Of a DNA stretch of 38,785 nucleotides, positions 1 to 13,200 are shown in pieces (the first letter of the stretch is position 1; each line of letters opens with the position of its first letter). Origin of the DNA: Solirubrobacterales bacterium (GTDB lineage: Bacteria; Actinomycetota; Thermoleophilia; Solirubrobacterales; Solirubrobacteraceae); contig JACDGG010000009.1 in the NCBI GenBank assembly GCA_013815355.1, positions 1 through 38,785 of the forward strand, given 5' to 3'. A model generated the notes under the pieces. That model did no database searches and was not told the DNA's origin. It saw only the letters and a program-made list of their open reading frames with translations. The translations under genes were made by a program, and so were the position numbers.

Positions 1-630
1 CGCCGTCACCGACCCAAAACTCGTCACAACACCCGCACTACTACTCACCGACGGGATCGACGCCCCAATCGACGCGGCACCACCAAACGTCAGATTATGC
101 GAGCCCGTGTAGGTGGTGACCGTGTTGTTGCTTTGATCCTTGGCGGTAATGGTGAGGTTGTCGGCGACTCCCGCCGTCGGGGTCGTGGTGCTCGCGGCGA
201 GGACGAGGTGAGTAGCTGGCCCGAATGTGACCTGGGCTTCGACGATCGTGCTCGTCGCCGTCCACGAGCGCCACACGGCGGTCACCGTGTACTGGTGGGT
301 GCCGACGGCGACACCGGTGTCAGTGCAGCTCGTCACGGTTGCCGTTGCCGTGGAGCTCGGGCAACTACCTTCCGGCGCGCCACCGTCGCGGCGGAGGTAG
401 TAGGAGACTTCGCCGGGGCCGGGGGCACTGACGGCGCTCCAAGTGAGCGCGACTGTGCCGGCGCCAGGGGTGGCGGAGGAGATCGTAGGCGCCGCGAGGA
501 TGGTGATGCCGCCAGCGGCTGCGCCCGTGCCAGTGGTCGTGAAGTACGCCACGGCACCGGAGGCGAGAGAAAGCACGAGAGCGACTGAAACGCCAATTCG
601 GGTGAGCGGCTTGATCGTTAGACGTTTCAT
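1..630 (-). CDS. Secreted protein with signal peptide, FN3-like domain and Ig-like repeat region (C-terminus beyond window)
   Basis: Reading frame open from ATG at 630 to position 1 (210 codons, absent from ORF track because incomplete): MKRLTIKPLTRIGVSVALVLSLASGAVAYFTTTGTGAAAGGITILAAPTISSATPGAGTVALTWSAVSAPGPGEVSYYLRRDG...GTHQYTVTAVW. The start overlaps the stop of the upstream gene (ATGA). Confidence 0.8.
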   Translation of the reverse strand, partial: MKRLTIKPLTRIGVSVALVLSLASGAVAYFTTTGTGAAAGGITILAAPTISSATPGAGTVALTWSAVSAPGPGEVSYYLRRDGGAPEGSCPSSTATATVTSCTDTGVAVGTHQYTVTAVWRSWTATSTIVEAQVTFGPATHLVLAASTTTPTAGVADNLTITAKDQSNNTVTTYTGSHNLTFGGAASIGASIPSVSSSAGVVTSFGSVTA

Positions 631-1640
631 GAGTGCGCGGTCCCGGTGAAGCTCAAGGAGAACTGGGCGTTCCGGCAGGCGTCTTGGTTGACGGGCAGGT
701 TGAGGAGGCCGATCGTCGGTGCCGAGTAGCCCTGCGCGGGCAACGTCAGGGAGTCGTGGGCGCCGATCGCGAGCGGAGCGACGCTCGATACGTTCGACTG
801 GAGGAGGCTGAGGTTTGTCGCGGGGTCGCAGCCGGGAGGTCCGCCCGGAACGGACACGCTCAGGCTTGTTATGAAGATCGGGGTGTCGTGCGGGTTGACT
901 AGCGTGAGGCGGATCGTTTGGGGCGTAGCGCCGGGGTAGAGCGGGCCGCCCACGACTTCGTCGAAGTTGATCGCGAAGCGCTGGCCAGCCGGCGGCGCGA
1001 CCACGAGCCAGTTGAAATGCGTGACCGGACTTGGAATCGCGGGTGGATCGATCGCGCGGACCTGGAAATGGTGCTCACCGGTGGTCAGTGTGTCGTAGGA
1101 GATGTGGCTCGAGCACTTCCTCCAGGAACGCCTGTCGATGCGGCACTGGAACGTGACGCGTGGCTCGCCGTCGGTGACCGTGAACGTCGCTTTCGTGGCG
1201 CTCGTCGGGTCGCGGAGGTGGTGGGCGATGTAGGGAGCCGGTGGCTGCAGGTCGACCAGCCATTTGTAGGAGACCGTGCGGCTCAGTTCCCGCCGGCCAT
1301 GAGACCAATCCAGTGCCCGCACCCGGAAAATATGAGATCCCCCCGCAAATGGCCCTGGGTAGCGCGTCGGGCTCCTGCAGGAGGAAAACCGCGCGCTGTC
1401 AAGCGAGCACTGGAACCGGACGCGATGCCAGCGATCGGTGTAGGCGAACCTCGCCGTGGTGCGCGGCGTCCCTCTGGCGGGCTTCATGGTGATCGACGGC
1501 GCCGGCACCAAGGGCTTGCCGTCCGGCTCATCGCGCGCGTAGAACGCGTAGGCGCCGCTGCCCGACACGCAGAGCACGACAAGCACCGCCAAGCACGTCT
1601 TCGTGATGGAGCTTTCGGTTGTCGTCCAGCGACTGAGCAT
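627..1640 (-). CDS. Secreted protein with two Cys-paired Ig/FN3-like repeats and a C-terminal domain shared with the upstream gene
   Basis: 337-aa ORF; N-terminal hydrophobic segment; repeats 'RVRFQCSLDSARFSSCRSP...FRVRALD' and 'RVTFQCRIDRRSWRKCSSH...FQVRAID'; C-terminus 'NQDACRNAQFSLSFTGTAHS'; ATGA coupling to the next gene. Confidence 0.8.
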   Translation of the reverse strand: MLSRWTTTESSITKTCLAVLVVLCVSGSGAYAFYARDEPDGKPLVPAPSITMKPARGTPRTTARFAYTDRWHRVRFQCSLDSARFSSCRSPTRYPGPFAGGSHIFRVRALDWSHGRRELSRTVSYKWLVDLQPPAPYIAHHLRDPTSATKATFTVTDGEPRVTFQCRIDRRSWRKCSSHISYDTLTTGEHHFQVRAIDPPAIPSPVTHFNWLVVAPPAGQRFAINFDEVVGGPLYPGATPQTIRLTLVNPHDTPIFITSLSVSVPGGPPGCDPATNLSLLQSNVSSVAPLAIGAHDSLTLPAQGYSAPTIGLLNLPVNQDACRNAQFSLSFTGTAHS

Positions 1641-1695
1641 AGGCTTGCCCGGTATCCGTTTCGGGAGGCCGGGCCGCCCAGTGACGCTCCGCCGG

Positions 1696-2166
1696 CTAGT
1701 TGCTCGTGAGGTTCAGGGTCAGCGTGGCGCCTTGGCAGGCGTTCTGGCTCACGCCTGTTTCGCGCATCGTGAGCGTGCCTGTCGCGGTGACAGACTGCGC
1801 GTTGCCAGACGGGATGCTCTGGCTCGCGGTGACGTCTGCCATCGTGAAGTCTGGGTTGCCTCCGGTAAGCACGGTGCTACACGTGGCGTGGCCTGCGTCG
1901 GGCGTGATGCTCACCAGGTGGATCGTGTTGACGAACTGGCTGCCCGGAGACGGGTTATCGACCGTGAAGGTCACCGTCGAGGAACTGGCGGGGTAGAGCG
2001 TGCTCGCAACTGTGCCGTGCAGGGTGACGTTCGCGCTGTTGCCGACCGAGGCCGTGCCGGTGCCGCTGCCGGTGCTTGTGAAGTACGCCGCCGCGACACC
2101 CCCAAGCACCAGTACGAGGATGCCGAGGGTGATCAGCATTCCTTTGCTTCCTATCGAACGGCGCAT
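1696..2166 (-). CDS. Small secreted protein with TasA/SipW-type-like signal region
   Basis: 156 aa, MRRSIGSKGMLITLGILVLVLGGVAAAYFTSTGSGTGTASVG...; same AYFTxTGxG motif as the 1..630 gene; C-terminus SQNACQGATLTLNLTSN resembles the C-terminus of 627..1640. Confidence 0.75.
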   Translation of the reverse strand: MRRSIGSKGMLITLGILVLVLGGVAAAYFTSTGSGTGTASVGNSANVTLHGTVASTLYPASSSTVTFTVDNPSPGSQFVNTIHLVSITPDAGHATCSTVLTGGNPDFTMADVTASQSIPSGNAQSVTATGTLTMRETGVSQNACQGATLTLNLTSN

Positions 2167-2606: not shown

Positions 2607-5573
2607 ATGAGCACTACCGACCTGACGGTGCAGCCGCTGCGGGTCCTGGTGATCGCCCCCGCCGCGGAGAGCGATTTGATCGCTGCGCAGCTCGCCTTGG
2701 CTGGGCTACCGCTCACTTTGGAGCTTGTTGATGGCGAGCGTGCCCTCGATGCCGCACTCTCAGCATGCCCTCGGGATGTGCTGCTGTGCGACCACGAACT
2801 CCCCGGCTTTGACTCCGTGCAGGCACTACAGATACTTGCGCGCCACCAGGTCACGGCGCCGCTCGTGATCGTCTCAGGAGACATCGGCGAGGAAACGCTG
2901 GCGCATGCCCTTCGTGAGGGTGCCGCCGACTACGTCAACAAGGACCACCTCGAGCAGCTCGGTCCCGTTCTCCGCCGCTATCTTCAGGACGCCGCTCTGC
3001 CCGCACGCCAGTCTTGGCTGGAGCGCACAGCGCGCGATGAGGAGGCCCGGATGAGGTCGCTGATGGACGACGCGCCGTTCCCGATGTCCCTGCGCGATCT
3101 CGACGGCCGCTTCGTGATCGTCAACCGCCTCGCCGCCTCGCTGATGGATCACGCGCCCGAGGACGTTCTCGGGCACACCGCAGCAGAGCTGTTCGACTCC
3201 GACGCCGCGGCCGCGATCGACGAGCAAGAGGGCATCCTGCGCCAGACAGGCAAGGCAATCAGCTTCGAGCTGACGGGCCCGACATCCGACGGCGTCCTGC
3301 ACGACTACCTCATCAGCAAGTACCCGGTGCGCAACAGCGACGGAAAACTTGTTGGCGTGGGCGGCATCTCGCTCGACATCACCGTGCGCAAACAGACCGA
3401 GAACAGCCTCCGCGAGGCAGAGGATCGCTTTCGTGGAGCCTTCGACGCAGCCACGATCGGAATGGCACTCGTTGCCCCCGACGGCCGCTGGCTGCAGGTC
3501 AACCGGGCGCTGTGCAACCTCGTCGGCTACTCCGAGCAGGAGCTACTGGGCGGCGACTTTCAGGCGATCACGCACCCCGACGACTTGGATGCCGACCTCG
3601 AGTATGTGCGCCAGGTGCTCGCCGCCGAGATCGACACCTACCAGATGGACAAGCGCTACATCCACAAGCTCGGCCACACAATCTGGGGGCGCCTGAGCGT
3701 CTCCCTCGTCCGTGATGCGCAGGCAACGCCAACGCATTTCGTTTCCCAGATCCAAGACATCACACAGCAGAAGGATGCGCAGGAGCTCGCCGAGCAGCTA
3801 CGCCATTCCCAGAAGCTCGACGCGGTCGGCCGCCTCGCCGGCGGTGTCGCACACGATTTCAACAACATGCTCACCGCGATCAAGGGGTACAGCCAACTCC
3901 TGTTGGAGGCCCTAGAGCCCGCCGATCCCCGCCGCGAGCTGGCCGAGCAGATCAGTCGCGCCAGCGAGCAGGCCTCCATGCTGCCGCGACAGCTCCTCGC
4001 GTTCAGCCGCAAACAGGTCTCCCAGCCGAAGCTCGTCGACGTCAACGACGTCCTCGCTGCAGCCAGCGACATGCTTGGGCGCCTCGTGGGCGAGGAGATC
4101 GAGCTCATCGTCACTGCCCAGGCGAACCCCTCCGGGGTGCTGGCCGATCCGGGTCAGGTCGAACAGGTGCTCCTCAACCTGGCGGTCAACGGCGGCGAGG
4201 CGATGCCCGCAGGCGGCAAGCTCACGCTCACCACACGAAATGCGGAGCTCACCCAGCAGGAAGGCGATGAGCTCCTCGGACCCACAGGCCGCTACGTCGT
4301 GATATCGGTCACAGACGAAGGCGAGGGAATCTACGCAGAGACGCAGGAGAAGATCTTCGAGCCGTTCTACACCACGAAGCGAACCGGGTCAGGATTGGGA
4401 CTCGCGACGGTCTATGGCATCGTGCGCCAGAGTGGCGGTTTCGTCCGTGTCGACAGCGAGCCTCGGAGCGGCTCGACGTTCGAGGTCTGGCTCCCTCACT
4501 CAGAGATCGCGCCCGCCGGGAGCAACGATCCAGCAGAGAAGTCCACCGCCGGCACAGTGCTGCTCGCCGAGGACGAGCAGATCGTGCGCGACCTCGCGGT
4601 CACTGTGCTCGAGCGCGCCGGATACCGAGTTCTCGCGGCCGCCAACGGCGAGGACGCTCTCGAGCTCTACCAGCGCACCAACGGTCCCCTCGACGTAGTC
4701 GTCGCGGACATGGTGATGCCCGGAATGAGCGGTCGCGAGCTCTCTGAACGCGTCGTCGAGCACAGACCGCACGCACGCGCCATCCTGATGTCCGGCTACA
4801 CCGAGGAGGCGCCATTCATCAGCACCGGAGGCACGGCCCGACCCACCTTTCTACAAAAGCCATTCACGCCGAGCGCACTTCTCAGCAGCGTCACGGCCCT
4901 CGTCGCGCAATCCCGCGACGCCACACGCCCCTGCGGAGAGATCACCCGCGAGAACACGATCACCTGCCTCGTCGCAGACGACCACCCCGCAGTACTGGAC
5001 TCCGTGTCACGGTATCTCACAGACAATGGCGTTGAGATCGTTGCTCAAGCCTCCCAAGGCGAGGAAGCACTCACACAAATCGAACTCCACCGCCCCTCGA
5101 TCGCTTTGCTCGATGTTCGCATGCTGTCTCTCACCGGCATCGAGGTCGCTCGTCAAGCCTCACTCACAGCCCCTGAGACCCAGATCGTGCTCTTCACGGG
5201 ATACAGCGACCGTGCAATGCTCGAGCAAGCCCTGGACACAGGCGTGCGAGGATTCATCCTCAAGGAAACCCCACTACCAGAGCTACTACACGCGCTCACC
5301 ACCGTCGCCGAAGGAGGCACCTACGTCGACGCCCAACTCGCTGACACACTCGCATCGGGACGGACCGTCAACGCGCTCTCCCCACTAACGCCACGCGAGC
5401 AAGAGATCCTCGCCCTCGTTGCAGACGGCATGACCAACGAGAAGACGGCAGTCGAGCTCGGCATCTCACCCGAGACAGTCCAATCACACGTCCGCAACGC
5501 CATGACAAAGCTCCACGCCGACACGCGAACCCAAGCAGTCGCAACCGCATTCCGCCACTCGCTACTGACCTAG
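2607..5573 (+). CDS. Hybrid sensor histidine kinase/response regulator: REC-PAS-PAS-HisKA-HATPase-REC-REC-LuxR HTH
   Basis: REC 'LLCDHELPGFD...VNKD'; two PAS blocks; H-box 'LAGGVAHDFNNML'; HATPase 'DEGEGIYAETQEKIFEPFYTTKRTGSGLGLATVYGIV'; two further RECs; HTH 'LTPREQEILALVADGMTNEKTAVELGISPETVQSHVRNAMTKL'. Confidence 0.93.
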   Translation: MSTTDLTVQPLRVLVIAPAAESDLIAAQLALAGLPLTLELVDGERALDAALSACPRDVLLCDHELPGFDSVQALQILARHQVTAPLVIVSGDIGEETLAHALREGAADYVNKDHLEQLGPVLRRYLQDAALPARQSWLERTARDEEARMRSLMDDAPFPMSLRDLDGRFVIVNRLAASLMDHAPEDVLGHTAAELFDSDAAAAIDEQEGILRQTGKAISFELTGPTSDGVLHDYLISKYPVRNSDGKLVGVGGISLDITVRKQTENSLREAEDRFRGAFDAATIGMALVAPDGRWLQVNRALCNLVGYSEQELLGGDFQAITHPDDLDADLEYVRQVLAAEIDTYQMDKRYIHKLGHTIWGRLSVSLVRDAQATPTHFVSQIQDITQQKDAQELAEQLRHSQKLDAVGRLAGGVAHDFNNMLTAIKGYSQLLLEALEPADPRRELAEQISRASEQASMLPRQLLAFSRKQVSQPKLVDVNDVLAAASDMLGRLVGEEIELIVTAQANPSGVLADPGQVEQVLLNLAVNGGEAMPAGGKLTLTTRNAELTQQEGDELLGPTGRYVVISVTDEGEGIYAETQEKIFEPFYTTKRTGSGLGLATVYGIVRQSGGFVRVDSEPRSGSTFEVWLPHSEIAPAGSNDPAEKSTAGTVLLAEDEQIVRDLAVTVLERAGYRVLAAANGEDALELYQRTNGPLDVVVADMVMPGMSGRELSERVVEHRPHARAILMSGYTEEAPFISTGGTARPTFLQKPFTPSALLSSVTALVAQSRDATRPCGEITRENTITCLVADDHPAVLDSVSRYLTDNGVEIVAQASQGEEALTQIELHRPSIALLDVRMLSLTGIEVARQASLTAPETQIVLFTGYSDRAMLEQALDTGVRGFILKETPLPELLHALTTVAEGGTYVDAQLADTLASGRTVNALSPLTPREQEILALVADGMTNEKTAVELGISPETVQSHVRNAMTKLHADTRTQAVATAFRHSLLT

Positions 5574-7697: not shown

Positions 7698-10169
7698 GTG
7701 CAAGGAAACTCTCATCCGCTCAGATCAGCAGGCGAGGGCGATGCCATAGCTTGGGTGCATGACGGACGTCACACATCCCGCTGGCCGAGCACCGACGCCG
7801 AGGCGCGCGGCGGGGCTGGGGACGTGGCGCGGCTGAACACCTCGGGAGTGGCGAGCGGCTCGCCGCCCCTCAGGAGCCCGAGCGGGCATGCGCTGAGCGG
7901 GTCGCGGCGACTCTGGCGGCGACTGCGGCGTCGCCGGGCGAGTGCGCTCGCCATGGAGGCGCTGCTCGCGGCGGTCGTGAGCGTCGGGTGCGCCGCGTGG
8001 GTGCTGCAACTGTGGCGAGCTGATCTCTCACTGCCATTGCGTTCGGCGCCCGTCGACGATACGAAGTTCTACCTGATGCTCGTGAAGGGCATCGTGGAGC
8101 ACGGCTGGTATCTGTCGAACCCGCATCTGGGCGCGCCGTTCGGCCAGCAGCTGAGTGACTATCCGCAGGGCGCCGACAACCTCAACCTCCTCGTCGTCCG
8201 CTTCCTCGCGATCTTCACCTCGAACGCGGCGCTGATCGTGAACCTGTTCTTCGGGCTCACCTTCGCCCTGGTCAGCTTCCTCGCGCATCTCGTGCTCCGA
8301 AGCCTCGGCCTGGGCACGGCCGCAGCTGGCGTCGCGGCGGTGTTGTACTCACTGCTCGCCTACCACTTCTTCCGTGGCGAGTCGCATCTGCTGCTCTCGG
8401 CCTACTACGCAGTGCCGCTCGCGGCCTACCTGTTCCTCGGACTGCTGGGCGAGACGCAGCTGTTCACGCGCCGCCGGGACACACGCCGGGCGTTCGCGTG
8501 GTGCTCCGGGCGTTCGCTCGCGACGATTGGGATCTGCGTGCTGATTGGGTCGGAGAACCTCTACTACGCGACGTTCGCAATTGTGATGATTGGCGCAGCC
8601 GCGAGCATCTCGCTCGTGCTGCGCCGCTTCAGGGTCGCCGCATCGGGGCTCGCGGTGATCGTCTTGATCTCCGCGACGGTGGGCGCCAACCTAGCGCCGA
8701 GCCTCCTGTACCGCTCCGCGCACGGCCCCAACACAGCGCTCGAACGCTCAGCGGCCTTCACCGAAGGATCGGGCGAGGCGTTCTCGCTCCGGATCTCGAA
8801 CCTCCTCCTGCCCGTGCCCGGCAACCGGGTCGCCCCGCTGCGCCAGCTCAGCAACCGCTACGACGGTGCGATCGCGCCGGGGTATTGCGAGTCTTGCTAC
8901 GCGAGCCTCGGGGCGGTCGGGACGGTGGGATTTCTCTGGCTGATTCTCTGCGCCCTGGGTGCGCTCGTTGCTGTCGGTGGCTCCTGGTTTGGCGCCCGTG
9001 CGCTGATCCGCCACGCCGGCGTTGGCGTGATCGTGGCGGTCGCGGTGGGCACCGTCGGTGGCCTCGCGAGCCTCCTCGAAGTCTTCATCACTCCGGACAT
9101 ACGCGCCTGGAACCGGATCTCGGTGTTCATCGCGTTCCTCTCATTTCTCGCTGTGGGGGTGCTGCTGGATCGGCTGAGCGGCACGCTGCACGCGCGGCGC
9201 TGGGGCACCCCGCTGGCCGGCGTGGGGCTGGCCGCGGTACTCGCGTTCGGGGTCTATGACCAGACGAGTGCCTCGTTCGTGCCCAGCTACGGCGCCGACG
9301 CGCGGCAGTGGCGGAGCGACGCGCGCTTCGTAGCGCGGATCGAAGCGCGGCTGCCTCCAAGCGCGAACGTGTTCCAACTTCCTTACGTGCCGTTTCCCGA
9401 GGGCTACCCGGAAACGCCGGTTGGCGACCAGGTCGCGACCTACTCGACCAAGTACGAGGCGCTGCGGGGCTACCTTCACTCCTCTACGCTGCGCTGGAGC
9501 TACGGCGCGATGAAGGGTCGTGCAGCGGACTGGTCGGCGCAGCTCGCTGGTCAGCCACTCCCCTACCTGCTCGCCGCGGTCTCGGCGGCGGGTTTCGACG
9601 GCCTCTGGGTCGACCCGGCAGGCTTCGAGCCCGCGAAGGCAACGCAGATGTGGGCGGCCCTGCAGGGCCTGCTCGGCGAGACGCCGCTGATCAGTCCCCG
9701 CGGAGATCTGTGGTTCTTCGACCTACGGCCATACACGCGGCGTCTGCGCGGTGCACAGCCGCCGGCGCTGCTGAGCCTGCTGCGCACCCGCACGCTGAGG
9801 CCACTGGGAGTGTCTTGCCACGCGGGCGGTGTCGAGCTGCAGAACCCGTCCGGGACGATTCGCCAGGCAAGCCTCGCGTTGCATCTCGCGCCGGCCGGGC
9901 GCCGCTTCGACGCGGGACACTCTGGGACATCCAGTGGACAGGCCGAGGACTACCCGCCGGCACTGAGCGAAGCCGTTAGCGAGCGGCTGCGCGTCGCGCC
10001 CGGAGCGACCTTCGTCGCGGTGCCCGGTGGAGCCGTGCAGGCCGCGCGGCAGGTGCTCTACGCAACGCTCACCGACGAGGACCTCGAGAGGTTCGCACGT
10101 TCCGGGAACATCGCAGCCGATGCACTGGTAGCGGGTCTCGCCGGCCCTCCATGCACGGGTAAGGGCTAG
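7698..10169 (+). CDS. Large multi-TM membrane protein, putative GT-C-like glycosyltransferase/polysaccharide protein (start uncertain, possibly 7824 or later)
   Basis: 823-aa ORF with many TM segments (MEALLAAVVSVGCAAWVLQLWRADL..., LNLLVVRFLAIFTSNAALIVNLFFGLTFALVSFLAHL) and a soluble C-terminal part (QLPYVPFPEGYPETPVGDQ...). Confidence 0.7.
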   Translation: MQGNSHPLRSAGEGDAIAWVHDGRHTSRWPSTDAEARGGAGDVARLNTSGVASGSPPLRSPSGHALSGSRRLWRRLRRRRASALAMEALLAAVVSVGCAAWVLQLWRADLSLPLRSAPVDDTKFYLMLVKGIVEHGWYLSNPHLGAPFGQQLSDYPQGADNLNLLVVRFLAIFTSNAALIVNLFFGLTFALVSFLAHLVLRSLGLGTAAAGVAAVLYSLLAYHFFRGESHLLLSAYYAVPLAAYLFLGLLGETQLFTRRRDTRRAFAWCSGRSLATIGICVLIGSENLYYATFAIVMIGAAASISLVLRRFRVAASGLAVIVLISATVGANLAPSLLYRSAHGPNTALERSAAFTEGSGEAFSLRISNLLLPVPGNRVAPLRQLSNRYDGAIAPGYCESCYASLGAVGTVGFLWLILCALGALVAVGGSWFGARALIRHAGVGVIVAVAVGTVGGLASLLEVFITPDIRAWNRISVFIAFLSFLAVGVLLDRLSGTLHARRWGTPLAGVGLAAVLAFGVYDQTSASFVPSYGADARQWRSDARFVARIEARLPPSANVFQLPYVPFPEGYPETPVGDQVATYSTKYEALRGYLHSSTLRWSYGAMKGRAADWSAQLAGQPLPYLLAAVSAAGFDGLWVDPAGFEPAKATQMWAALQGLLGETPLISPRGDLWFFDLRPYTRRLRGAQPPALLSLLRTRTLRPLGVSCHAGGVELQNPSGTIRQASLALHLAPAGRRFDAGHSGTSSGQAEDYPPALSEAVSERLRVAPGATFVAVPGGAVQAARQVLYATLTDEDLERFARSGNIAADALVAGLAGPPCTGKG

Positions 10170-10173
10170 CGCG

Positions 10174-11622
10174 GTGGCCACGCTCGGCCGCCTCGAGCGA
10201 CCCGCGGCGCTGCCCGCCAGCCGCCCGCAGCGTCACGGTTCAAGCGTCTCGCTGAACGAGCGCGTCGCGCGGAGCGCCGCCGCAATCTCACTGCTCGGCC
10301 TGCTCGCCGGGAGCCTCCTCGTGGTTGTGATCGCAGCGGAGCGCCCCAGCTTCCTCACGCCGCTCTCTGAGCGCGGGTTCTTCCCGCCCTGGCTGGCGGG
10401 TCCGCTCCACGGGCTATGGCCTCAGCTGACCGGCGATGGCACACAGCTCGAGTGGCTTCTCAGCGCGCTGATGGCCGCCATGTTCGTCTTGTATCTGATT
10501 GCCTCCAGCAACGTGCGGCGCTTGCGCGCGCGCTGGACGATCGTGACGATCGTGGCGATCCACCTGATCTTCGTGCTCGCTCCTCCACTCTCCTACACCG
10601 ACGTGTTCAACTACGTCAACTACGGGCGGATGGGAGCGGTCCACCATCTCAACCCTTACACGACGGTGCCACTGCTGGAGCCTCACGACGATCCGTCGTT
10701 TCCGTTGAGCAACTGGCATCACCTCCTCAGCCCCTATGGCCCGCTGTTCACCCTGTTCACGTATGCGCTCGTGCCGCTCGGCGTGGTGGCCTCGTTCTGG
10801 GCACTGAAGCTGACCGTCATGCTGGCGAGCCTGGCAACACTCGGGCTCCTCTGGCGTTGCGCGCAGCTGCTTGGCCGTGATCCGGTGGGGGCCATCGCCT
10901 TCGTCGGCCTCAACCCCGTCGTTCTGGTGTGGGGTCTTGGCGCAGACCACAACGACAGCCTGATGGTGCTCTTCGCGGTGCTCGCCGCCTATCTCCTGCT
11001 GCGAGCTCCGAGGGCGGCCCGTGCCGGCGGCGTGTCGCTGGTGTGCGCGATCTTCGTCAAGGCCTCTGCAGCGGTGATGCTGCCGGTGTTCCTCTTCGCC
11101 GGCGGCCGGCGGCGTTTCGCGCTCGGCGCCCTGAGTGCCGCTGTCGTGCTCACGCTCGCGAGCGTGGGCGCTTTCGGCCTGCACCCGCCGGCCGTCTCGA
11201 CGCAGAGCCGGCTGGTGGCGGCGATCTCGCCTCCGAACCTTCTCGGTCTCGCGATCGGTCAGGGCGGAGAGACCGCCGCGGTTAGGGCTGTGTTCGAGGT
11301 GTCCCTGATCCTTGCAATCGGCGCTTGCGCGCTCTGGACCGCGCGTCGGCCCGCCGATTGGCTCGCGGCCGCGGCCTGTGCCCAGCTCGCACTGCTAGTC
11401 GGGCTCGGCTGGTCGGGACCCTGGTATGTCCTCTGGGTTCTACCCTTCGCCGCACTCGCCGGTGGCAAACGCCTGCGTGCGGCGGCGGTCGCGCTCGGCG
11501 TCTACTTCCTGCTCGCATACCTGCCGGCCACACCGATGCTGGCCGGCGCGATCGGCTTCCATCCTGAATCGACCCGATTGGGCGTCGCACACCGGGAAGA
11601 AACCGAACTCCTGGTGCGCTGA
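10174..11622 (+). CDS. GT-C family mannosyltransferase-like membrane protein, paralogue of 6126..7613
   Basis: Motifs LSYTDVFNYVNYGRMGAVHHLNPYTTVPLL, SPYGPLFTLFTYAL, AFVGLNPVVLVWGLGADHNDSLMV, GPWYVLWVLPFAAL; GTG start. Confidence 0.75.
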   Translation: MATLGRLERPAALPASRPQRHGSSVSLNERVARSAAAISLLGLLAGSLLVVVIAAERPSFLTPLSERGFFPPWLAGPLHGLWPQLTGDGTQLEWLLSALMAAMFVLYLIASSNVRRLRARWTIVTIVAIHLIFVLAPPLSYTDVFNYVNYGRMGAVHHLNPYTTVPLLEPHDDPSFPLSNWHHLLSPYGPLFTLFTYALVPLGVVASFWALKLTVMLASLATLGLLWRCAQLLGRDPVGAIAFVGLNPVVLVWGLGADHNDSLMVLFAVLAAYLLLRAPRAARAGGVSLVCAIFVKASAAVMLPVFLFAGGRRRFALGALSAAVVLTLASVGAFGLHPPAVSTQSRLVAAISPPNLLGLAIGQGGETAAVRAVFEVSLILAIGACALWTARRPADWLAAAACAQLALLVGLGWSGPWYVLWVLPFAALAGGKRLRAAAVALGVYFLLAYLPATPMLAGAIGFHPESTRLGVAHREETELLVR

Positions 11623-11741
11623 GCGCGCGCCGGCAGGGCCGGCGGGACGCTCGCAGGACAGGGCCCGCCACCCGACGCGAGCCCACAGCCGCATTCGCTG
11701 CGCCCAGCCGCGCCCAGGCGACCACGCCCTAGGATGCCTCG

Positions 11742-12530
11742 ATGCGCATCGGCATTCTCACCGGCTCCGGCACCCACGTGCTCCCGACACTCAAGGACGT
11801 CACACCGCGCGTCCTCGACACTCGATTCGGCCCTACGAACGTGAGCATCGGGCGCTGGCGCGGAGCCGAGATCGTGCACGTCTCGCGCCACGGCGAGGGT
11901 CATGCGCGCCTGTCCAGCCACGTCAACCATCGGGCCAACGTGCTCGTGCTGCGCGAGTTGCAGGTCGACGCGGCGCTTGCCGTCACGATCTGCGGTGCGG
12001 TCGATCCTGATCTCGAGCTGGGCAGCCTCGTCGTCTTCGACGACCTGCATTTCCTCGCCAATCGCCTCGCCGACGGCTCGATCTGCTCCCTGCACGATCG
12101 TCCCGAAGCTCCCGGTCGCGGACACTGGGTCTTCGAGCAGCCGTTCTCCAGCCCGCTGCGCGAAGCGTTGCTCGAGGGAGCGATGGCGGCCGGGCGGCCC
12201 GCACGCGACGGCGGCTGCTACGGGCACGTAGACGGTCCACGCTTCAATACGCGCGCAGAGATCCGGATGCTTGGCGCCTGTGGAGTGAGCGCGGTCAGCC
12301 AGACCGCCGGACCGGAGACCGTCCTTTGCGGCGAGGCAGAGATCCCCTACGCGCTACTCGGCTATGTCACCGACTACGCCAATGGCGTGCGTGCGCAGCC
12401 GACGCAAGTGTCGGAGCTCACGCGGCTGATGGGCGCGAGCACGGGCGCATTCGCGGCGACCCTCGAGCACACACTCGCGTGCTTGCCCGATGCGCCACCC
12501 TCCCCCGTCGGCGCCCAAATCCGCTTCTGA
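11742..12530 (+). CDS. Divergent 5'-methylthioadenosine phosphorylase / PNP family 2-like protein
   Basis: MRIGILTGSGTHVL..., VSRHGEGHARLSSHVNHRANVLVLRELQV, CYGHVDGPRFNTRAEIRMLGACGVSAV, YALLGYVTDYANGV. Confidence 0.8.
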   Translation: MRIGILTGSGTHVLPTLKDVTPRVLDTRFGPTNVSIGRWRGAEIVHVSRHGEGHARLSSHVNHRANVLVLRELQVDAALAVTICGAVDPDLELGSLVVFDDLHFLANRLADGSICSLHDRPEAPGRGHWVFEQPFSSPLREALLEGAMAAGRPARDGGCYGHVDGPRFNTRAEIRMLGACGVSAVSQTAGPETVLCGEAEIPYALLGYVTDYANGVRAQPTQVSELTRLMGASTGAFAATLEHTLACLPDAPPSPVGAQIRF

Positions 12531-13200
12531 GCTGGCAGCGGCGCCGGTGCCCGATGTGATCCTGCCTGTGCTCAACGAGGCCCTCGCCCTGCCGAGAGTT
12601 CTCGCGGCGATCCCTGACGGTTATCGCCCGATCGTCGTCGACAACGGCTCGAGCGATGGCTCGGGCGAGCTGGCCGCCGACCTCGGCGCGCTCGTGGTGA
12701 GCGAACCCCACCGTGGCTTCGGTGCCGCCTGTCACGCGGGGCTACTCGCCGCAGGGGAGGAGATCGTATGCGTCATGGACTGCGACGACTCGTTTGACCC
12801 GCGCGAGCTGCCTCGGCTGGTCGAGCCGGTCCAGCGCGGCCGGGCCGAGCTGGCGCTCGGCTGGCGCCGCCCGCTCCCTGGAGCCTGGCCGCTGCATGCG
12901 CGACTCGCCAACCGCGTGCTGATGCGCTTGCTGCGCGCACGCGGCGGCATCGCTCTGCACGATCTCGGACCGATGCGCGCCGCGCGCCGCGAGGCGCTGC
13001 TCGGCCTGGGGATCGCCGATCGTGCCTTTGGCTACCCGCTCGAGATGGTCCTCAGGGCCGCGGCGGCGGACTGGCGGATCTATGAGACCCCAATCACCTA
13101 CAGGCCGCGGATAGGCGACTCGAAGGTGACCGGGACGTTCCTCGGCACCGCACGGGCGGCTCGCGACATGACTCGCCTACTGGCCACCGTGCCACGCTGA
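12490..13200 (+). CDS. Family 2 glycosyltransferase (DPM1-like)
   Basis: VILPVLNEALALPRVLAAIPDGYRPIVVDNGSSDGSGELAADLGA...VCVMDCDDSFDPRELPRLV; 41-nt overlap with the preceding ORF if the 12490 ATG is used. Confidence 0.85.
   Translation: MRHPPPSAPKSASELAAAPVPDVILPVLNEALALPRVLAAIPDGYRPIVVDNGSSDGSGELAADLGALVVSEPHRGFGAACHAGLLAAGEEIVCVMDCDDSFDPRELPRLVEPVQRGRAELALGWRRPLPGAWPLHARLANRVLMRLLRARGGIALHDLGPMRAARREALLGLGIADRAFGYPLEMVLRAAAADWRIYETPITYRPRIGDSKVTGTFLGTARAARDMTRLLATVPR

Follow-up and report, generated by a model that had tools for sequence, protein, structure and literature searches.

In the TasA filaments of Bacillus subtilis, encoded by the tapA-sipW-tasA operon (PDB 8aur, 5of1), the mature N-terminus (from A28-F29) serves as a donor strand that contacts the conserved proline box (P62) in the following protomer, and TapA, which has a fold unlike that of TasA and shares its N-terminus, initiates filament formation (PMC9674648, PMC10151520). 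Cleavage of TasA by the Escherichia coli signal peptidase LepB is hindered by aromatic residues at P2' and P2 (PMC10269814). The tripartite TasA-CalY-CapP matrix of Bacillus cereus (PMC13082335) and the bundling pili and threads of archaea, which are sortase-free donor-strand filaments of beta-sandwich subunits (PMC9674648, PMC9715654), are further systems of this kind. A literature search on a TasA-like system of actinobacteria, or on an operon such as the one described below, found nothing specific.

The present locus lies in a metagenome-assembled Solirubrobacterales genome (3.2 Mb, 305 contigs). The window, that is, the whole stretch of DNA that was analysed, is one entire contig of 38,785 bp, so that its left edge is the contig end. 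The first-pass annotation had placed a three-gene secreted-protein cluster, cut by the left edge, at 1-2166, and its coordinates were right: three contiguous genes, here called S, M and L, fill this segment (Table 1), and L runs into the contig end. As all three are on the minus strand, the order of transcription is S, M, L. Only 55 bp separate S from M, and L starts at an ATG that overlaps the M stop codon, the two genes having 4 bp in common; the three genes therefore probably form a single transcript. A scan of positions 1-2700 revealed no sigma-70-like promoter and no simple terminator, and RNA elements were not found within the window.

Table 1. Features of the S-M-L locus (window positions)
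Feature	Position	Strand	Evidence
S, small subunit, 156 aa	1696..2166	-	ORF, relatives, 70-sequence alignment, AlphaFold
Signal peptide of S (predicted), residues 1-27, A-x-A before Y28	2086..2166	-	Ala -3/-1 conservation
Conserved mature N-terminus of S, YFTSTGSG ([YF][WF][TS]xxGxG)	2062..2085	-	alignment, regex
M, middle protein, 337 aa	627..1640	-	ORF, profile search
S-type C-terminal domain of M (..LYPG..N..C..VNQDACRNA..L..TGTA)	645..968	-	profile match E=1.8e-8
L, large protein, first 210 aa only	1..630	-	ORF; cut by contig end
Conserved mature N-terminus of L, YFTTTGTG	523..546	-	regex; weak S-profile match E=8e-4

Divergent to S, at 2607-5573 on the plus strand, lies a gene for a 988-aa hybrid sensor kinase (PAS, HisKA, HATPase, receivers and a LuxR-type output), which could regulate the S-M-L operon. 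Response regulators adjoin S in four of the 51 loci described below and do not appear in the family list for 51 control genes; four loci are too few to claim two-component regulation as a conserved neighbour. The interval between S and the kinase gene contains a perfect 12-bp inverted repeat, TATCTCTCTGGC-n5-GCCAGAGAGATA (2227-2255), which is not common to relatives and has no further copy in the genome.

The AYFTxTGxG region that had been noticed in two of the genes is indeed common to S (VAAAYFTSTGSG) and L (GAVAYFTTTGTG), where it directly follows the hydrophobic segment (VAAA/YFTSTGSG in S and GAVA/YFTTTGTG in L, the slash marking the predicted cleavage site), and it is nearly invariant among S proteins. 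In an alignment of 70 S homologues, Ala occupies position -3 in 69 and position -1 in 68, Tyr or Phe position +1 in 69, and Trp or Phe at +2, Thr or Ser at +3 and Gly at both +6 and +8 are found in all 70. The P2' residue is aromatic in 70/70 homologues, and so is the P2 residue in 54/70. A regular expression for the motif matched 64 of the 77 S proteins in the conserved loci and 19 genes of the downstream set, whose 51 long genes include non-L genes, as compared to 5 of the 482 other proteins of the same loci, four of these five being L proteins that the downstream set had missed (p about 1e-82 by Fisher test, after the L counts had been regrouped by hand). The combination of A-x-A and [YF][WF][TS]xxGxG is thus almost confined to S and L. 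At the level of sequence, the signal end and the mature start, both nearly invariant, are common to S, most S2 proteins (the additional S-type protein of some loci) and L.

AlphaFold confidently predicts an Ig-like beta-sandwich for S, with a mean pLDDT of 91.9 for the mature protein. The mature N-terminus is Gly/Ser-rich, and the models do not show it as a strand. Two cysteines, C96 and C144, are invariant, and an LxPG box at P59/G60, 30 residues past the +2 aromatic, is present in at least 90% of the S proteins (alignment, n=70).

M begins with an N-terminal hydrophobic segment (GAYA/FYAR), continues with two FxC-type Ig-like modules, which abound in large proteins of the order, and ends in an S-type domain. 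Pairwise BLASTP between S and M is not significant (E=0.036), but a profile built from 10 S proteins only recovers this C-terminal domain of M with the E-value given in Table 1, and also finds the S-adjacent M gene in most relatives; the earlier proposal of a C-terminal domain common to both proteins is thereby confirmed. P59, N71, C96, Q141, C144 and A147 (S numbering) are invariant across S and M. Judged by these residues and the profile matches, one small domain with a predicted beta-sandwich fold is common to S, M and, often, S2.

The available part of L comprises the signal, the YFTTTGTG motif, an Fn3-like domain and the start of Ig-like repeats. Its 210 residues are 65% identical to the first 211 residues of a complete, 1606-aa L in a same-genus genome (locus L043), in which a 366-bp repeat occurs in about 11 tandem copies. 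Elsewhere, the C-terminal parts of L consist of Big-type Ig arrays, lactonase-like propellers, RCC1 propellers or laminin-G, and inspection by eye of the L proteins listed noticed no C-terminal anchoring motif. Examples of propellers behind the shared N-terminus are RCC1-like in L079 (11033-14620) and lactonase/NHL-type in L045 (5554-7515) and L047 (9442-11190). Such downstream variability is what an adhesive part would be expected to show.

Homologous clusters are present in relatives and well beyond them. The S profile matches 40 of 232 genomes of the order, and a scan of one genome per species yielded 51 loci, the closest named ones by sequence being Solirubrobacterales metagenome-assembled genomes. 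They are distributed over Solirubrobacterales/Thermoleophilia, Micrococcales, Propionibacteriales, Acidimicrobiia (Acidimicrobiaceae), Dactylosporangium and some Chloroflexi metagenome-assembled genomes, with Arthrobacter, Pseudarthrobacter, Sinomonas, Agrococcus, Nocardioides, Terrabacter and Patulibacter among the genera found; many of the actinobacteria concerned live in soil or water. The genes usually follow one another as S-M-L or S-M-S2-L and are either closely spaced or overlapping. Of the independent loci, 39 extend for 3.5 kb or more downstream; a second S-domain protein is present in 32 of them, L under a strict rule in 28, and both in 25. The surrounding genes vary between loci while the module is kept as a unit, which suggests a self-contained cassette. 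Phage copies were not found, and the single plasmid copy is on an Arthrobacter megaplasmid. In one genome (G017, locus L046, 11402-15479), prepilin-like genes with LIEVLVA and LIELLVA N-termini lie near S-M-L, on the other side of S.

The arrangement resembles tapA-sipW-tasA in several respects. A small exported beta-sandwich protein is encoded together with a second, unrelated exported protein that has the same N-terminus, an aromatic residue stands right after the cleavage site, and an LxPG box follows about 30 residues on; the distance from aromatic residue to proline is 30 in S (+2 to P59) and 33 in TasA (F29 to P62; PMC10151520). With an N-terminus shared by unrelated bodies, the +2 aromatic and this spacing, S and L repeat the TasA/TapA arrangement in outline. 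On the other hand, the S operon has no SipW inside or nearby and contains the large multidomain L as well as the S-domain protein M, and mature S, which has two conserved cysteines and an NQxACxGA end, shows no significant sequence or fold match to TasA. The B. cereus matrix is likewise composed of two related subunits and a third protein and uses no sortase, but its locus has sipW, no large Ig/propeller protein is described there, and its mature domains have no detected relation to S. A match to the archaeal filaments was not found.

The first-pass annotation had compared the signal regions with SipW-dependent TasA/camelysin-type signals, and the likeness lies in the signal region only. In that reading, SipW would cut S and L, and S would be a bona fide camelysin fibre subunit. 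The S, M and L proteins of the window have no match to the Pfam family model, PF12389; with full-length S homologues, it matches 19/70 at E up to 1 (best E=6e-6), collinear over about 80 residues, the singly inspected matches all being below the cut-off. Once the signal is removed, it matches only 2/70, at E 0.057 or worse. Similarly, hhalign of S against SipW-linked camelysins gives 83.7% with the signal and 0.4% without it, and the latter score (14.1) is at the level of the best of 40 column shuffles (14.2). As a positive control, the profile of these SipW-linked camelysins finds TasA (8aur) with E=9e-5. In Foldseek searches, 8aur ranks second for the full-length S model (E=0.041) and is not among the listed top 50 matches for the mature model; neither model has a close PDB match below E=0.04, and the matches are generic Ig-like ones. 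Searching solved structures with the S profiles gave nothing credible. The models for SipW-dependent exported proteins (TIGR04088/04089/04090) do not match the window proteins and match 1-4 of the 70 S homologues, at E 0.0014 or worse. Since the support for camelysin membership of S is driven by the signal and is lost, together with the rank of 8aur, when the signal region is removed, we do not claim that S belongs to the TasA/camelysin family. No Pfam or NCBIfam model covering S, M or the S-domain was found.

The distribution of SipW leads to the same outcome. No signal peptidase gene was seen within the S clusters read, and SipW (TIGR02228) stays below the cut-off both in the present genome and, among the relatives of the order that bear the module, in 11 of 12. 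TIGR02228, which covers the SipW/archaeal type, is above the cut-off in 17 of 61 relatives; among the 13 with S-profile matches, which include one genome (G026) with M/L-type matches only, at contig ends, a single one (G042) has it, on a contig other than that of the module and beside a camelysin-like gene of its own. The co-occurrence (1/13 versus 16/48, Fisher p=0.09) is in the negative direction and gives no positive association. Further module-bearing genomes lack SipW above the cut-off in 10 of 23 cases, a few of the 23 (L073, L080, L084) apparently being assemblies already counted as relatives. SipW-less isolates with the module include Patulibacter medicamentivorans I11, Terrabacter sp. 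Root85, Arthrobacter sp. AL12 and Intrasporangiaceae URHB0013. Relatives that do carry SipW have separate camelysin-type genes beside sipW. These proteins (for example those of L056, L058, L167 and L177) are exported and have a hydrophobic segment followed by an aromatic residue, as in S; unlike S, they adjoin the SipW gene and their profile matches TasA (E=9e-5), and their mature part aligns with S no better than shuffles. The nearest spacing of sipW to the module, where both occur, is in Pseudarthrobacter chlorophenolicus (L185, 3337-4736 / 8723-12968), in which SipW and its own camelysin-like gene are ~4-5 kb from S-M-S2-L. The family search in the 61 relatives and 23 further genomes thus rejects SipW dependence, which we regard as largely refuted already, and the reading of S as a SipW-processed camelysin is, as a whole, very unlikely.

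This genome encodes two LepB-type signal peptidases of the Ser-Lys type in tandem (locus L184, 1122-2651); a relative (G016) has one LepB-type enzyme at the position of the pair. S has the features of a LepB substrate, with A-x-A at -3/-1 and LepB-type enzymes in the same genome. Given that aromatic P2' and P2 residues hinder E. coli LepB, cleavage of S could be inefficient. Either the actinobacterial LepB tolerates these residues, or the proteins stay anchored.

We tentatively favour, at somewhat less than an even chance, the reading of the locus as a self-contained operon of Actinomycetota for a surface fibre or matrix exported by Sec, whose products may be joined via their shared mature N-terminus. 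Sec would carry S, M and L across the membrane, and an ordinary LepB-type signal peptidase would cut after A-x-A. S would then supply the repeating subunit; M and S2, which have an S-type domain too, would be minor ones; and L would be a large adhesive or anchoring component that caps or anchors the assembly. The shared mature N-terminus may act as the assembly element, its aromatic start pairing with the S-domain that comes next in the assembly, perhaps at the conserved LxPG loop, in the way that the N-terminal strands of TasA and TapA pair in TasA filaments. The conservation of [YF][WF][TS]xxGxG and LxPG is consistent with donor-strand polymerisation via the mature N-terminus. We hold the export of the proteins strongly, their surface assembly moderately, and a donor-strand-like contact weakly to moderately. 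Against the fibre reading, a relation to TasA was not established at the level of structure, and the modelled N-terminus is not a strand. The broader proposal of a widespread actinobacterial (partly Chloroflexi) filament system, a sortase-free and SipW-free counterpart of TasA with beta-sandwich subunits, a large variable adhesin, a shared N-terminus and Sec/LepB export, is possible and rather doubtful.

In an unlikely, yet serious, alternative, the signals remain uncleaved and S, M and L are membrane-anchored, YWTxxGxG being a membrane-exit or complex-forming segment in an envelope adhesin or receptor complex that builds no fibre. The aromatic P2 and P2' residues, the very feature that blocks LepB on TasA (PMC10269814), and the lack of SipW above the cut-off in this genome argue for such anchoring, but an uncleaved anchor would not need the Ala residues at -3 and -1, which are kept in 68-69 of 70 homologues, and no anchoring motif met the eye at the C-termini of the L proteins listed. 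We give little credence to a role of the S-type domain as chaperone or inhibitor of assembly, with small S-domain proteins binding L and presenting it as the sole surface structure. Such a role would accord with the loci read, where L is preceded by one or more S-domain proteins, and with the size and variability of L, which far exceed those of the other proteins; however, L itself has the S-type conserved N-terminus, which is unexpected for chaperones and favours co-assembly of the two.

The earlier suggestion of an uncharacterised extracellular fibre or matrix survives in part: exported proteins, a conserved cassette, Ig-like folds and exchangeable L domains of the adhesin type fit an uncharacterised multi-protein extracellular system, within which fibre formation is what we infer. 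The module lacks a family in Pfam and NCBIfam, exported beta-sandwich matrix or fibre operons are already known as a kind, and the function is proposed. The finding places a conserved exported-protein cassette in actinobacteria that are common in soil, some of them culturable (Arthrobacter, Sinomonas, Terrabacter and Nocardioides). Its invariably aromatic P2' residue, poorly tolerated by E. coli LepB, offers a direct test of signal peptidase rules, and the filament reading, if true, would imply LepB export despite aromatic residues that block the E. coli enzyme. If fibres are built, the cassette would add a type of surface appendage or biofilm matrix to a phylum with few known.
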